A DNA stretch of 64,000 bases from Polaribacter marinus. Lineage in GTDB: Bacteria > Bacteroidota > Bacteroidia > Flavobacteriales > Flavobacteriaceae. This document shows positions 1,604 through 7,104 of the stretch, one piece after another. The position numbers and the translations under genes are program-made. The notes beneath the pieces were generated by a model that was not told the origin of the DNA, did not search any database, and worked only from the letters and a program-made list of their open reading frames with translations. Each line of letters starts with the position of its first letter. The first letter of the stretch is position 1. The stretch lies in contig NZ_JAKQYM010000002.1 in the NCBI RefSeq assembly GCF_022662535.1, positions 124,001 through 188,000 of the forward strand, in the 5' to 3' direction.

Positions 1604-3079
1604 ATGAAAAAAATATTATTAAGTGCTGCGTTTATAGCAGTAAGTTTTACAATGACCGCACAAGTAGGTATTGGGACAACAACTGTAGAAACCTCTGCCG
1701 CATTAGAAATAAAAGCTTCAGACAAAGCCTTATTATTACCACGTGTAGCTAACACTTTGGCTATTACAACACCAGTAGATGGTATGATTGTATATGATAT
1801 ATCAACCTCATGTGTACGTTTTTATGATAAAGGAAACTGGTCACCATGTTTATCTCCAGCAGCAGCAGGAGCATCAGCAACCATAGTATTAGCACAAATA
1901 GGAGCAGAGGGCGATGACCCAAATACTGTACCTTCTATAGTAACAATAGACCAGTTAAACCAGTTAGGGTTAAATAATGTAGTAGTAGCCAACGAGGCAG
2001 CTTACCAAGCTTATATAGATGCCAACCCAGATATGTTTGCTAACCCTGCAACAAAAGCAGAAGTACAAAATATGGTAAACACTGTAAACATTGCAGCTAT
2101 TGTAGCAGCAAGTAATGACCCTGCCGATGGTACACCAAGCATTGCAGATTTAACAGCTGTAGGTGTTACAGGTATGAACCCTGCAAATATTGCACAATAT
2201 GAAGTAGCAATAAATAATGCTTCTCCTGCACCAACAACATTAGCAGAGTTACAAGCAATAATTAATATTAATGAAGACACATTAGCAGGTTTAATAGCAA
2301 GTGCAGAATACCCAGTAGCAGGTTTAACAGAAGCACAATTTACCAATGCAGGTGCTACAGGTTTGGTAACTGCAAACGTAGCAGCGTATGAGGCTTATAC
2401 AGCACAGGCAGAGCCAAAACCAACTACTTTAGCAGGTTTACAAGCTATTGTAGATGAGGTAAACACGTTTGTAAGTACCAATGCAGCAGATGTAGTAATA
2501 AGTACTACAGGTGCAATTTGGGCAAACAAAAACCTTGGGGCTAGCCAAGTGGCAACTTCTAGTACAGATGCTGCCTCTTACGGTAACCATTACCAATGGG
2601 GTAAAGCACAAGCGTTTACAAATGCGTATAGTACAGCAAATAATGTAGCAGGCCCAGTAGCTAGTGCGGCAGTAGCAGGTACAAATTTTGTTACAAATGG
2701 TACAGCACCTTATGATTGGATTACACCAGCAAACGATTTTTTATGGAACTCTGGTACAGAAGCTAACCCAACAAAAACAGCGGCAGACCCTTGCCCTACA
2801 AATTACAGAGTACCAACATATACAGAGTTAACGTATGAGAAAGCTAATTTACCAACAGCTAATGCTGCGGGTGCTTTTGCAAGCCCATTAAAGTTGCCAG
2901 TTGCTGGTGCCCGTACCAGCAGTACTGGTGCGCTTAACTACGTGGGTACCTACGGCAACTATTGGTCTAGTACAGTCAGTGGTACGACTGCTCGTACCCT
3001 GAACTTCAATAGCAGTACTGCCACCATGACCAGTACCAACCGTGCCTACGGCTTTTCAGTACGTTGCATTAAGGAGTAA
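1604..3079 (+). CDS. DGR-diversified exported protein with FISUMP-like C-terminal domain
   Basis: A 491-residue exported protein with signal peptide (residues 1-20, ending TMTAQ) and no lipobox. Residues 21-82 resemble the VGIGTT...ALEI module at the start of many Bacteroidota surface proteins. Three repeats of about 50 residues follow (roughly 109-162, 177-222, 238-287), each ending in a TLAELQAI-like helix. Residues about 297-491 form a FISUMP (Fib_succ_major)-like domain: a GxIWANKNLGA opening, a YQWG motif, DPCPTNYRVPT, then NYWSS and a final GFSVRCIKE. The VR covers codons 432-491, including the stretch that in C-type-lectin-like DGR targets forms the ligand-binding face. The protein is probably surface-exposed and binds a variable ligand; the ligand is unknown. 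Third-position GC is higher in the VR than in the rest of the gene. Confidence 0.93.
   Translation: MKKILLSAAFIAVSFTMTAQVGIGTTTVETSAALEIKASDKALLLPRVANTLAITTPVDGMIVYDISTSCVRFYDKGNWSPCLSPAAAGASATIVLAQIGAEGDDPNTVPSIVTIDQLNQLGLNNVVVANEAAYQAYIDANPDMFANPATKAEVQNMVNTVNIAAIVAASNDPADGTPSIADLTAVGVTGMNPANIAQYEVAINNASPAPTTLAELQAIININEDTLAGLIASAEYPVAGLTEAQFTNAGATGLVTANVAAYEAYTAQAEPKPTTLAGLQAIVDEVNTFVSTNAADVVISTTGAIWANKNLGASQVATSSTDAASYGNHYQWGKAQAFTNAYSTANNVAGPVASAAVAGTNFVTNGTAPYDWITPANDFLWNSGTEANPTKTAADPCPTNYRVPTYTELTYEKANLPTANAAGAFASPLKLPVAGARTSSTGALNYVGTYGNYWSSTVSGTTARTLNFNSSTATMTSTNRAYGFSVRCIKE
2897..3075 (+). repeat. DGR variable repeat (VR)
   Basis: Aligned base for base with TR at 5541-5719 (constant offset 2644), it shows 16 differences: 11 A-to-C, 3 A-to-T, 2 A-to-G, and no change at any TR C, G or T. 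Codons changed are 436, 438, 439, 441, 446, 450, 462, 465, 472, 474, 476, 478 and 482 (all Asn in TR); codons 458 and 481 change silently. The last 28 bases (3048-3075) are identical to TR even at adenines, as expected for the initiation-of-mutagenic-homing end. The first mismatch at a non-A base is the next one (G here, T at 5720). Confidence 0.97.
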
Positions 3080-3110
3080 TTACTTTGGGTTTTGTACCCT
3101 TTAAACTTAA

Positions 3111-3137
3111 ACTGGCTGTCCCGTTAGGGCAGTCAGT
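3111..3137 (+). terminator. Hairpin 3' of VR: DGR homing hairpin and/or terminator
   Basis: An 11-bp stem (arms 3111-3122 and 3127-3137, with one bulged T and a G-T pair) closes a GTTA loop and is followed by a T run (3137-3143). It lies 32 bases after the target stop codon. In studied DGRs a hairpin or cruciform shortly after VR is needed for efficient homing; the T run also makes it a good intrinsic terminator. Both uses are compatible. Confidence 0.7.
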
Positions 3138-3146
3138 TTTTTTAAT

Positions 3147-3160
3147 ACCGCGTTAGCGGT
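3147..3160 (+). other. Second short hairpin with the same GTTA loop
   Basis: ACCGC (3147-3151) pairs with GCGGT (3156-3160) around a GTTA loop, followed by TTTTTTTT (3163-3170) directly before the ATG at 3176. The loop is identical to that of the larger hairpin 10 bases upstream. Role unknown: a second terminator, part of the homing structure, or a translational control element of the next gene. Confidence 0.55.
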
Positions 3161-3175
3161 CATTTTTTTTCAAAA

Positions 3176-3649
3176 ATGAAAATACAAGAAAAAGTAAATT
3201 TAGCAGCACAACCAAATAAGCTATACCTTTTTAAAGAAGGTATGTTTTATAAAGTCTATAACCAAAACGCTATGTGGTTTGTACAACACATAAAACCTTA
3301 TAAAATAACAGTTAAATACATTAAAAATATACAGCAAGAGGTGTATAGTATTGGTTTTCCTATAACTTATTTAGCTAACATTAACTTAAAACCTTTTGCA
3401 CTACAAAATATAGCAAATACTACACCAAAGTTATTGTGTTATACCATAACACAGCAACCTATAAAACAAATAAACTATATAAATTGGTGTGCAAATTTGC
3501 CAAAGCAAAACGCACAACCAATACAACCAAACACAACCAATGCTACTATGCAAACTAACATAATTACCCAATTACAAAATTTTGAGATGGCAACCAAAAC
3601 GCCTATACAAGCTTTTGAGTTTTTAATACAGTTAAAAAAAATGATGTAG
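3176..3649 (+). CDS. MutS domain I-like DGR accessory protein (MSL type)
   Basis: A 157-residue protein with no signal peptide or membrane span. Residues about 16-75 resemble mismatch-recognition domain I of MutS: LYLFKEGMFYKVYNQNA matches the family pattern LFxxGxFYExYxxDA, including the Phe-x-x-Gly-x-Phe-Tyr core, and GFPITYLANI matches the GxPxxxLxxYL segment that follows. The rest of MutS (clamp, ATPase) is absent. MutS-like 'MSL' genes have been reported in some DGRs. Its place between VR and RT supports a role in retrohoming, perhaps nucleic-acid binding or tolerance of the mismatched cDNA; this role is inference. The C-terminal third is Asn/Gln/Thr-rich, then a helix. Confidence 0.65.
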   Translation: MKIQEKVNLAAQPNKLYLFKEGMFYKVYNQNAMWFVQHIKPYKITVKYIKNIQQEVYSIGFPITYLANINLKPFALQNIANTTPKLLCYTITQQPIKQINYINWCANLPKQNAQPIQPNTTNATMQTNIITQLQNFEMATKTPIQAFEFLIQLKKMM

Positions 3650-3654
3650 AATTT

Positions 3655-3699
3655 AGTTGGCAGTATTCAGTTGGCAGTATTCAGTTGGCAGTATTCAGT
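3655..3699 (+). repeat. Three tandem copies of AGTTGGCAGTATTC
   Basis: Perfect 14-base units at 3655-3668, 3669-3682 and 3683-3696 plus a partial AGT. They lie between the MSL-like gene and the reverse transcriptase. A related CAGTT-based tandem repeat sits at 35201, so this is probably a general intergenic repeat of the genome rather than a DGR part. Confidence 0.85.
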
Positions 3700-3789
3700 A
3701 ACCCACCCAGTTTGTCACCCTGTAAGGGTCTCACGCAACGGTAAGCCACCAAAAACCACCAACTACAAACCATTAACCAACCAAAAAAA

Positions 3790-5013
3790 TTGCAAACCCT
3801 AACAGAACAACTTTACTTCTCTTACCTAGAAGCGCGCAAAAATAAACGTAACACGCACAATCAATTGGCTTTCGAGTTAGATTTAGAACATAATTTATGC
3901 ACTTTAGCACATCAAATTTATACCAATACCTACCAACCAAAACCAGCTATTGCCTTTATAGTAAACAAACCTGTGCAAAGAGAAATCTTTGCAGCAGATT
4001 TTGCAGATCGTGTGGTACATCATTTAATTTACAGATGTTTATACCACCAACATATAGATCCCTTTTTTATAAAAGATAGTTACAGTTGCCGTAAAGGTAA
4101 AGGAACGCTATATGGTGTTAAGAGAGCAACCCATTTTATACGTTCTTGTACCCAAAACTATACACAAGATGCCTATATTTTAAAACTAGACATCTCGGGC
4201 TATTTTATGAATATGAGTCATAACATATTATACAATAAAGTAATGGCTTTTATAACCCAAAAAGAATATTTAGGCGTCTCTGCACAAACATTAATACTAC
4301 TTTTGCAGAAAACAATTTTTACAAATGTAGCTACTAATTGCCGTATAAAAGGCAATAAAAGCGAATGGGTTGGGCTACCAAGAGACAAGAGTTTGTTTAA
4401 CAAACCCAAAGGTGTGGGGTTGCCTATTGGCAATTTAACCTCGCAAGTGTTTGGTAATATTTATTTAAACCAACTAGACTATTTTGTAAAAAAAGAATTG
4501 AAAATTAAGTATTATGGCAGGTATGTAGATGATATGATATTTGTGCATAAAAATAAAACAGTTTTAAAAGAGATACTACCAAAAATACAAGCACAGTTAG
4601 ATTTGGTGGGGTTAACAATACATCCAAAAAAAATATACTTACAGCATTATACTAAAGGCGTTTTGTTTTTAGGCCATTATATAAAACCATACAGAGCATA
4701 TATAAGCAACCGTACAAAAGCAAATTTTTACAAGGTTATACCCATAATAAATCATTTAATTACTGTAAGTTTTCAAATTACGTGGGCAACAATGACAAAA
4801 GTAAGAGCCTTATTAAACTCCTATTTAGGCACATTAAGCCACGCTAAATGTTATAATTTAATAGCGAAGGCACTACAAAACCTAGATAGTAAGTTCCATT
4901 ATTTTTTTGGGTGTACAAAAAACTATTCTAAAATCTATATAAAAAAGGACTATTGGTTATGGCATTATACACAAACTTACCTGTTTACAAAACAGGGTAC
5001 GATGTTTTGTTAG
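3790..5013 (+). CDS. DGR reverse transcriptase
   Basis: A 407-residue reverse transcriptase. Visible motifs in order: KPVQREIFAADFADRVVHHL (RT1-2), LKLDISGYF with catalytic Asp about 134, GLPIGNLTSQ (about 210-219) where Gln replaces the Pro usual in group II intron enzymes and marks DGR enzymes, YVDD (245-248) with two catalytic Asp, and GVLFLGHYI (RT7). There is no maturase or endonuclease domain, so it is not a group II intron protein. A TTG at 3790 is the only plausible start near the first conserved residues. It copies the TR transcript and misincorporates opposite adenines. Its 3' end overlaps the Avd gene by 55 bases, which suggests coupled translation. Confidence 0.95.
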   Translation: MQTLTEQLYFSYLEARKNKRNTHNQLAFELDLEHNLCTLAHQIYTNTYQPKPAIAFIVNKPVQREIFAADFADRVVHHLIYRCLYHQHIDPFFIKDSYSCRKGKGTLYGVKRATHFIRSCTQNYTQDAYILKLDISGYFMNMSHNILYNKVMAFITQKEYLGVSAQTLILLLQKTIFTNVATNCRIKGNKSEWVGLPRDKSLFNKPKGVGLPIGNLTSQVFGNIYLNQLDYFVKKELKIKYYGRYVDDMIFVHKNKTVLKEILPKIQAQLDLVGLTIHPKKIYLQHYTKGVLFLGHYIKPYRAYISNRTKANFYKVIPIINHLITVSFQITWATMTKVRALLNSYLGTLSHAKCYNLIAKALQNLDSKFHYFFGCTKNYSKIYIKKDYWLWHYTQTYLFTKQGTMFC

Positions 5014-5318
5014 ACGTACACAGATATACAAACACTTTTGCTAGAGAACATAAATATACTTTAGGCGAAAAATTAAAAGAAGAAAGCATACAGTTATTAA
5101 TAGCTGTTTTTAAAGCAAATAAAACCAAACAAAATAATAGATTGTTACACATAGAAACTGCAAGAGAACATTTAGAGTTATTACGCTTGCTCTCTCGTAT
5201 AGCAAAAGATTTAGATATATTAACAGCAAGGTTATATGTAGCCTTAAATTTAAAATTAGAAGAAATATCAAAACAATTAACAGCATGGCAAAAATACACG
5301 GTCGGAGCTATTACCTAA
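4959..5318 (+). CDS. avd: Avd-type four-helix-bundle DGR accessory protein
   Basis: A 119-residue, all-helical protein starting at the ATG at 4959 (an in-frame TTG lies two codons earlier). It has the S23/bAvd-like pattern: YKTGYDVLLDVHRYTNTFAREHKYTLGEKL near the N-terminus in family form, a central LLHIETAREHLELLRLLSRIAKDL helix, and a basic surface; shown here only as family context, with key features an aromatic/basic first helix and a conserved LGEKLK turn. Avd forms a pentamer that binds the reverse transcriptase and TR RNA and is required for adenine mutagenesis in the Bordetella phage DGR. The gene overlaps the RT gene and ends 222 bases before TR. Confidence 0.88.
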   Translation: MALYTNLPVYKTGYDVLLDVHRYTNTFAREHKYTLGEKLKEESIQLLIAVFKANKTKQNNRLLHIETAREHLELLRLLSRIAKDLDILTARLYVALNLKLEEISKQLTAWQKYTVGAIT

Positions 5319-5442
5319 ATTTTTTATAAATTTACTAATAGGAGTGCTTTGTAATCCTAACACAGCCCTTATAATAAAAGTAAGGACAAGGTTAAAAAAG
5401 AGTTCCTTTTGGCAGTTCCTAAAGGTTGCTGTTAAAATTGTC

Positions 5443-5462
5443 ATTCCCGTGAAAACGAGAAT
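5443..5462 (+). repeat. ATTCCCG-type palindromic intergenic repeat
   Basis: ATTCCCGT (5443-5450) and ACGAGAAT (5455-5462) form a hairpin with one mismatch around a GAAA loop. It lies in the 222-base spacer between avd and TR, so it would be in the TR transcript. The motif resembles the short 'attcccg...cgggaat' palindromes found scattered in Flavobacterial genomes. The rest of the spacer shows no gene. Confidence 0.5.
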
Positions 5463-5540
5463 CTATAAAATGAGTTCTTTTAAAACATTTAACCTACAAA
5501 TATAGTGTAGTTTAAATTATAAGTTTGTGTTTTTATAATA

Positions 5541-5719
5541 CCAGTTGCTGGTAACCGTAACAACAGTAATGGTGCGCTTAACAACGTGGGTACCAACGGC
5601 AACTATTGGTCTAGTACAGTAAGTGGTACGAATGCTCGTAACCTGAACTTCAATAGCAGTAATGCCAACATGAACAGTAACAACCGTGCAAACGGCTTTT
5701 CAGTACGTTGCATTAAGGA
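5541..5719 (+). repeat. DGR template repeat (TR)
   Basis: An intact copy of VR with adenines kept (57 in 179 bases, mostly as AAC or AAT). Read in the VR frame, it encodes Asn at all 13 positions that differ in the target protein; AAC can change to many residues but never to a stop by A substitution. It is non-coding in practice: no start or ribosome site is seen. It lies downstream of avd and 44 bases before the next gene, within the same transcription direction, so the TR RNA could come from the RT-avd transcript. The last 28 bases match VR exactly. Confidence 0.97.
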
Positions 5720-5763
5720 TTACATTTTTGCTATGCTTTTAAAATAATAATTATAAAATAAAG

Positions 5764-7104
5764 ATGAAAAAAAAACTAATAATAATTCTAATACTATTAA
5801 ATTTTAGCACACAAGCCCAAACCATAAAAGGCACATTAACACAACAAACTGGGCAACAAGTAAGCCTAACAGGTTTTAGTAATTATACTACCCAAGAACT
5901 AGGTAAAACAGTTATAGATAGTTTGGGTTTTTTCACCCTAAACTACCCTAAAGATTACAAAGGTATGGCATTACTAAAAACACAAGATAATAGCCAACTG
6001 CCACTAGTACTTACAGAGCCAATTATTACCTTAAAAGGATTAAGTTTAGCACAAACAGAAAACCTACAATTTATAAACAGCCAAAAAAACAAAGAGTTTA
6101 ATACCATTGTACAAGGTATTACACAATATAACCAAGCTTACCAAGCGTGGCGTTATTTGCAAACCATATATACAAACCCAAAATACATACAGCCACCAAC
6201 AAAAGTATTGCAAAGCATAACCCAAGAATTACAGCGCATACAAGAAACAAACCAACAAACAATTAATGCACTGCCAAAAACAAGTTATGCACGTTGGTTT
6301 TTACCCATACGCCAATTGGTAAACGAAATGCCTAATAGCGCAAATGTATATAAAGAACGCATACCACAAAACATACAACAGTTTAGAAAGGTTAATTTTA
6401 GCAACCCTAATTTTAAAACTAGTGGTTTGTTGGCACAAGTGTTAGAAGGGCATTTTATGTTAATAGAAAAAATAGATCAACCAAAGGACAGTATGCACCT
6501 ACAAATGCAAACCAGTATAAAGTATTTGTTAAATAATTTAGAAGGTAATGATGCTTTGTTAAATAAAATAGGTACACATTTATTTAATTATTTTGAAGCA
6601 CGTAGCTTGTTTACTGCATCAGAATATTTGTCTTTACAATTATTAGAAAACAGTCAATGTACATTAGAAGATAGTTTAATAGCCAAACTAGAAGGCTACC
6701 GTAAACTAAAAGCAGGTAATACAGCGCCAGACATACAACTTACAGCAACCAAAAAATTAAGCGATATTAAAACCAATAAACTATTAGTATTTGGTGCCAG
6801 TTGGTGTCCGCATTGTAAAACAGATACTGCCGAAATTTTAAAATTATACCCAACGTGGCAAACTAAAAATACAGAAGTAATATACATAAGTATAGATACT
6901 GATAAAGAAGGATTTAATAGCTATTACGCAGATAAGCCTTGGCAAACCTATTGTGATTTTAAAGGGTATGAAACCCAAGCCGCAAAAGACTATTATATAA
7001 CAGGTACACCAAGTTACTTTTTGTTAGATGCTAATAATACAATTTTGATACGCCCAAATACTGTTTTGCATGCCAGCATTTGGATTGAGACTAAATTGCG
7101 GTAA
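5764..7104 (+). CDS. TlpA-like thioredoxin-fold protein, exported
   Basis: A 446-residue protein with signal peptide (residues 1-19, ending STQAQ). The N-terminal part (about 20-110) resembles the DUF4369 module common before TlpA domains in Bacteroidota; the middle is helical. Residues about 318-446 are a thioredoxin fold with WCPHC (active Cys 348 and 351) and the cis-Pro loop TGTPSYF (Pro about 416). It should be a periplasmic thiol-disulfide reductase or oxidase acting on exported proteins. It begins 44 bases after TR and may be read from the DGR transcript, but nothing shows it takes part in the DGR; a link to the cysteine-containing target domain is speculation. Confidence 0.85.
   Translation: MKKKLIIILILLNFSTQAQTIKGTLTQQTGQQVSLTGFSNYTTQELGKTVIDSLGFFTLNYPKDYKGMALLKTQDNSQLPLVLTEPIITLKGLSLAQTENLQFINSQKNKEFNTIVQGITQYNQAYQAWRYLQTIYTNPKYIQPPTKVLQSITQELQRIQETNQQTINALPKTSYARWFLPIRQLVNEMPNSANVYKERIPQNIQQFRKVNFSNPNFKTSGLLAQVLEGHFMLIEKIDQPKDSMHLQMQTSIKYLLNNLEGNDALLNKIGTHLFNYFEARSLFTASEYLSLQLLENSQCTLEDSLIAKLEGYRKLKAGNTAPDIQLTATKKLSDIKTNKLLVFGASWCPHCKTDTAEILKLYPTWQTKNTEVIYISIDTDKEGFNSYYADKPWQTYCDFKGYETQAAKDYYITGTPSYFLLDANNTILIRPNTVLHASIWIETKLR

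Follow-up and report, generated by a model that had tools for sequence, protein, structure and literature searches.

The 64,000-nucleotide stretch of the Polaribacter marinus genome analysed here (the window; contig NZ_JAKQYM010000002.1, positions 124,001 to 188,000) carries a complete, intact-looking diversity-generating retroelement (DGR), for which the sequence gives good support for adenine-specific retrohoming and activity is predicted. A target gene ending in the variable repeat (VR) is followed by MSL, the reverse transcriptase (RT), Avd, a leader region and, last, the template repeat (TR); all four reading frames are open. The original prediction, made from this DNA's letters, had given the order as target, MSL-like, RT, Avd and TR, and each element is present where it was placed. 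We consider it likely that the leader upstream of the TR base-pairs with the 3′ end of the TR, closing it into a loop for copying by RT and Avd. What is new here lies in this RNA leader architecture and in the anatomy of MSL; the DGR as a kind of element is known.

The retroelement is recognized above all by its repeats, a 182-nt direct repeat (2897–3078 and 5541–5722) with 91% identity. Across the 179 aligned bases of VR and TR there are 16 differences, all 16 at TR adenines (11 A>C, 3 A>T and 2 A>G). As adenine makes up 57 of the 179 TR bases, such an adenine-only pattern would arise by chance with a probability of 2.2e-9 (hypergeometric), which bears out the predicted TR/VR pair of 179 aligned bases with changes at adenines only. 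Thirteen of the changed codons are Asn in the TR, and two of the 16 differences are silent third-position changes; the first base past the aligned stretch, 3076, shows a T>G difference. The check proposed with the original prediction, a search for further VRs matching the TR, yielded no other in the 3.39-Mb genome (99.86% complete, 50 contigs): only the TR itself and this VR matched the TR over more than 22 bases, the best other match spanned 15 bases (E 1.84), and a FISUMP search of the genome gave matches only at the target and the TR.

The protein components also conform to what had been read from the sequence. The RT, described as having YVDD and IGNLTSQ, has an intact catalytic motif (GLPIGNLTSQ and YVDD) and matches RVT_1 (E 1e-19) and the PHROG reverse transcriptase family (E 2.7e-88). 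The Avd-like protein reported to overlap it does so by 55 nt and matches bAvd at 57.8 bits, above the cut-off of 40, and PHROG Avd (E 6.4e-20); against NCBIfam Avd it scores 53.4 bits, below the cut-off of 80. A cassette that is whole but inactive, as in the sister species (genome G036), seems very unlikely to us. In G036 the same cassette carries frameshifts in both RT and MSL, and its TR is shortened: 75 bases match the VR, with 12 of the 16 differences at TR adenines. Judging from these lesions, it is a decayed copy. That precedent, together with the single VR in the P. marinus genome and the frameshifted barrel gene beside the cassette, favours a relic, whereas the four open frames, the intact RT motifs and the lack of any non-adenine difference over 179 bases argue against one.

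In a tree of 35 RT rows, from which G036 was left out, the order MSL-RT-Avd-TR marks one RT clade: all seven TR-last rows fall on one side of a branch with support 100/100, and none of 500 shuffles was as low. The TR-last rows have W.WH in common in their last 45 RT residues, a motif absent from the last 45 of the other rows. MSL lies upstream of RT-Avd-TR in all eight clade loci (the window, G036, L013–L017 and L136), and the target is on the contig in six, those of L013 and L016 ending short; L025, with a target and MSL but only an RT fragment, was excluded from this count. Among 18 other RT-bearing loci, which include two near-copies (L021 and L029) and a broken one (L048), 17 have the order Avd-TR-RT and L018 has no Avd or TR. 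MSL also occurs in other arrangements (VR-MSL-Avd-TR-RT in L050, VR-MSL-TR-Avd-RT in L138, and incomplete loci L137, L139 and L140). The remark that a TR in last place is notable was therefore right but does not extend to uniqueness, as this placement prevails throughout one RT clade and the order RT-Avd-TR recurs in a viral contig (L053, 2344–5120; RT-Avd-TR-VR without MSL). Because L053 lies outside the TR-last clade, a TR after the RT arose more than once, and with 122 cassette patterns among 948 DGRs (PMC6642488), gene order alone is no novelty.

Counting the P. marinus genome each time, RT matches were present in 3 of 97 near genomes (at 1e-20), 3 of 397 in the family (at 1e-60) and 11 of 395 in the phylum, the remaining ten of which all come from one genus. 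Scanning genome contigs gave 13 RT relatives; two records titled Bifidobacterium and Thioalkalivibrio are apparently misbinned contigs. Genome G041 has a more distant DGR in canonical order (L028), and three other loci of canonical order (L042, L045 and L049) have one or two extra VR-like copies several kilobases from the TR.

The proposed role of the leader rests first on conservation within the clade. The gap between Avd and TR measures 117–222 nt and is conserved at both ends, whereas the TR 3′ flank is unalignable over the clade, some of its letters being common to L013–L016 and others to the window and G036. Folding the six more distant loci with RNAalifold gave a closing stem (P1) and two hairpins, a structure of 28 pairs in which 97.0% of cells are paired and nine both-side changes occur, as counted on the alignment from which it was derived. 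Of 500 shuffles, none did as well in paired fraction, both-side-change count or covariation score, 16 did as well in how many pairs carry both-side changes, and 9 in how many pair types occur. Versions of the structure that had been slid had no more than 53% of cells paired. With the window and G036 added, P1 is formed in 96.9% of cells over eight loci, with T-A to C-G and T-A to G-U changes (those in the window and G036 being one common change), and 95 and 335 of 500 shuffles reached its two count measures. In a second helix, P0, 8 bp connect the leader with the boundary at the 3′ end of the TR. P0 is formed in 93.8% of cells over the eight loci; one of its pairs appears as A-U, U-A and G-C and is unformed in three of the eight. 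Shuffles reached its five measures in 0, 50, 0, 21 and 0 of 500 cases; P0 was first drawn as six pairs, a form reached by 50 of 500 shuffles, and its two flanking pairs were added after the sequences had been viewed. P0 and P1 use neighbouring stretches of the leader, so both ends of the TR would be held together. Rfam returned no family for the leader, the sole match being suhB at 3075–3150 (23.4 bits; cut-off 41).

Two results weigh against this picture. The window's own 9-bp P0 is only marginal by itself, with 186 of 400 shuffles as good and 21 of 400 across the TR end, and 13 other leaders outscore the window's own in the 57-cluster test described below. P0 was also considered as a means of distinguishing TR from VR; it could serve in the window and fails in L136 and L014, where the VR has nearly the same letters.

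Under the loop model, the template RNA would be made in leader-TR form, P0 would set the start of the cDNA by presenting the TR end to the RT, and from the looped TR, RT and Avd would make adenine-mutated cDNA that likely replaces the VR. In the TR-last clade, RT-Avd would then recognize the leader, unlike in phage BPP-1, where the spacer 3′ of the TR recruits RT-Avd and primes the cDNA (PMC12875486). Trailing RNA has also been predicted to be structured (PMC8867640). An ordinary DGR with BPP-1-like RNA, its RT-binding and priming part lying in the short gap 3′ of the TR and the start of the TlpA-like gene and its leader being just the untranslated end of the Avd message, is in our judgement improbable. 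The BPP-1 precedent is on record, and some letters 3′ of the TR are indeed common to L013, L014, L015 and L016, as is ATTTTTGCTATGC to the window and G036. However, only 44 bases separate the TR from the next ATG in the window, L136 has a long hairpin immediately after its TR, and over the clade it is the leader, with its compensatory changes, whose two ends align and not the 3′ flank.

Similar pairing between leader and TR 3′ flank, with unrelated letters, was seen by eye in canonical relatives (for example, L028, L040, L019 and L022). For a systematic test, 108 loci were entered, of which 88 had an automatic TR call; with four clade loci added by hand, 92 loci gave 56 clusters, each represented once. 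When the 200-nt leader was scored against 24-nt windows, pairing peaked at +5 to +35 after the TR end (mean z-score −0.64 to −1.0), compared with −0.3 to +0.7 from −130 to −5 and −0.3 to 0 from +45 on. Own leaders paired better than swapped ones at −10..+40 by 4.03 kcal/mol (p 1e-4, the smallest value obtainable from 10,000 permutations), ranking first in 8 of the 56 clusters and among the top three in 15; two TR-interior windows showed no own-leader advantage (p 0.40 and 0.93), and the test at +50..+100 gave p 0.016. A hand-picked 17-cluster subset (p 2e-4) was not counted as independent. With BPP-1 added (57 clusters), p was 5e-4 at the TR end (−12..+12) and 1e-4 at +12..+36, compared with 0.23 at −36..−12, 0.41 at −60..−36 and 0.08 at +60..+84. 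By these window-by-window results, some lineages pair at the TR boundary itself and others further 3′, and the enrichment over 56 clusters suggests that leader pairing with the TR 3′ flank may be general among DGRs. BPP-1 was tried as a positive control: the end of avd and the spacer can form a 16-nt helix, but its energy ranks only fourth of 57 leaders and the control is therefore not decisive.

The leader and its pairing might instead control transcription or RNA end formation, the helix acting as a terminator or protecting the RNA end, with no part in cDNA synthesis. Terminator-like hairpins just after the TR in several canonical loci would fit this, as would the maximum of the swapped-leader signal at +12..+36; yet the signal at the TR end is also significant and specific to the own leader, and P0 sits at the TR boundary in the aligned clade loci. 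We regard such a control element as unlikely and retain the closed loop as our preferred reading.

MSL is the second unusual part. Its 157 residues appear to combine a mismatch-binding domain at the N terminus with a pair of MutS-like helices at the C terminus. The MutS_I match, at 16.7 bits, falls under the cut-off of 20.6 and is supported by fold and profile comparison; in the latter, both ends of MSL match both ends of MutS, exceeding 150 of 150 column shuffles. Neither Pfam nor the profile comparison matched an ATPase domain, and the middle of MutS is unmatched, so MSL is derived from MutS without being a MutS. Where MutS has FYE, MSL has FYK, with an invariant Lys. Foldseek gave no PDB match for MSL under E 0.001. 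Overall MSL looks like a mini-MutS, a mismatch-binding head and C-terminal tail without the ATPase core, and the function predicted for it is to keep the host's MutS away from the mismatched duplex of cDNA and VR. Both MSL and HRDC have been described as DGR accessories, with MSL assigned to PF01624 (PMC10053308); the MSL described there shares with ours the N-terminal MutS domain I and the place beside DGR genes, and the C-terminal helix pair and the change of FYE to FYK are found here, in a comparison that did not include the primary DGR survey.

An MSL profile matched 5 of 395 genomes of the class, P. marinus included, one of them (G997, L136) with the same gene order; a wider draw of 396 genomes gave the same matches. 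Two MSL scans of viral contigs found no relatives, although L050, a viral contig identified by RT similarity, contains a weak match to MSL (23%, E 1e-11). An origin in a phage or plasmid was set aside, the RT relatives in phage and plasmid records all being less than 60% identical and those two scans empty, with no survey of prophage genes made in the wider window. A 14-bp tandem repeat in three copies lies between MSL and RT (3648–3699).

The target gene, predicted to end in the VR, does so. It has 491 codons, a start that resembles a signal peptide when judged by eye, without a predictor, and a FISUMP domain match (E 2.2e-6, 28.5 bits) under the curated cut-off of 33.9. The original suggestion that the cell can diversify a binding protein displayed on its surface thus keeps its standing as an inference on both display and binding: the target would be a displayed binder. 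A hairpin after the VR is reported to be required (PMC3240598); the one in the window has a z-score of −3.97, equalled by none of 200 shuffles, and among six clade loci folded a strong one is present in three (the window, L015 and G036) and absent from L014, L017 and L136.

Features of the cassette (window coordinates)
Feature	Position	Strand	Basis or remark
Target gene	1604..3079	+	Signal-peptide-like start, FISUMP-like C-terminal domain, VR at its end
VR	2897..3075	+	All 16 mismatches to TR at TR adenines; last 28 bases identical
Post-VR hairpin (spacing 33 bases), with a terminator-like T run	3109..3139	+	DNA fold
MSL, mini-MutS	3176..3649	+	Family scan, fold and profile comparison
Reverse transcriptase	3790..5013	+	Listed with a TTG start; YVDD; C-terminal tail specific to the clade
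Avd	4959..5318	+	ATG at 4959, listed ORF from TTG 4953; family scans
Leader RNA region, Avd–TR gap	5319..5540	+	Ends conserved in clade, compensatory changes
Predicted helix P0, leader strand	5350..5358	+	
Predicted closing stem P1, 5′ strand	5359..5366	+	
Predicted closing stem P1, 3′ strand	5524..5531	+	Last of 8 pairs unformed in window
TR	5541..5719	+	Repeat search and comparison with VR
Predicted helix P0, TR-3′ strand, across TR boundary	5716..5724	+	

Directly after the TR, a TlpA/thioredoxin-like gene (5764–7104) is a possible but unproven passenger of the cassette. A relative adjoins the cassette in G036 and L016 and lies at a distance of 1.5 kb in L014, and weak matches occur in L137 and L140; none was found in L013 or L017, and the contigs of L015 and L136 end too early. 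We rejected the gene as a DGR component and leave it as a lead. Upstream of the target lie the C-terminal part of a protein sorted by the type IX secretion system (T9SS; 69–743, TIGR04183) and a barrel-type outer-membrane gene (961–1558) that is split over two frames near 1146, by a frameshift or an assembly error; its two relatives in G036 are single open frames throughout. In G036 (L027) the block of T9SS-type protein, barrel protein and FISUMP-like target is present in two copies, one of them beside the decayed DGR.

The element shares with the Bordetella phage BPP-1 DGR an RT, Avd, an adenine-directed TR/VR pair, a VR ending the target gene and a post-VR hairpin. It differs in that BPP-1 is annotated in the order mtd-avd-TR-brt, with a 144-base spacer between TR and brt, whereas in the window RT (27% identical) and Avd precede the TR, MSL is present and the Avd–TR gap holds a conserved RNA. 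Canonical Bacteroidota DGRs (L019, L023, L028 and L040–L049) are closer, with RTs 43 to 52% identical, Avd, adjacency of Avd and TR and, in several, complementarity between leader and TR 3′ flank, but they have the order Avd-TR-RT, do not share the RT tail and have no MSL beside them by tblastn. MSL and bacterial MutS have in common the N-terminal mismatch-binding fold and the C-terminal helix pair, from which MSL departs in its small size, missing middle and FYK. We found no report of the leader helix or of MSL's MutS tail by title or start of abstract, a search that does not establish absence in print, as it did not extend to the principal survey of DGRs or to a paper on BPP-1 RNA; PMC8144416 had no match for terms on RNA structure and order.

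More broadly, and tentatively, DGR template RNAs may share an undescribed leader-closed TR loop, from which one Bacteroidota clade would have dropped the trailing spacer, while a reduced MutS would mask the heteroduplex from host mismatch repair and so keep the adenine changes. Among the papers compared, the RNA recognized by a DGR RT is described for one phage, BPP-1, and a leader helix that recurs across lineages with different letters makes it possible to test directly how cDNA synthesis is organized beyond it. The compact TR-last cassette could suit directed protein diversification, and MSL provides a test of how a self-mutating system may evade the mismatch repair of its own cell.
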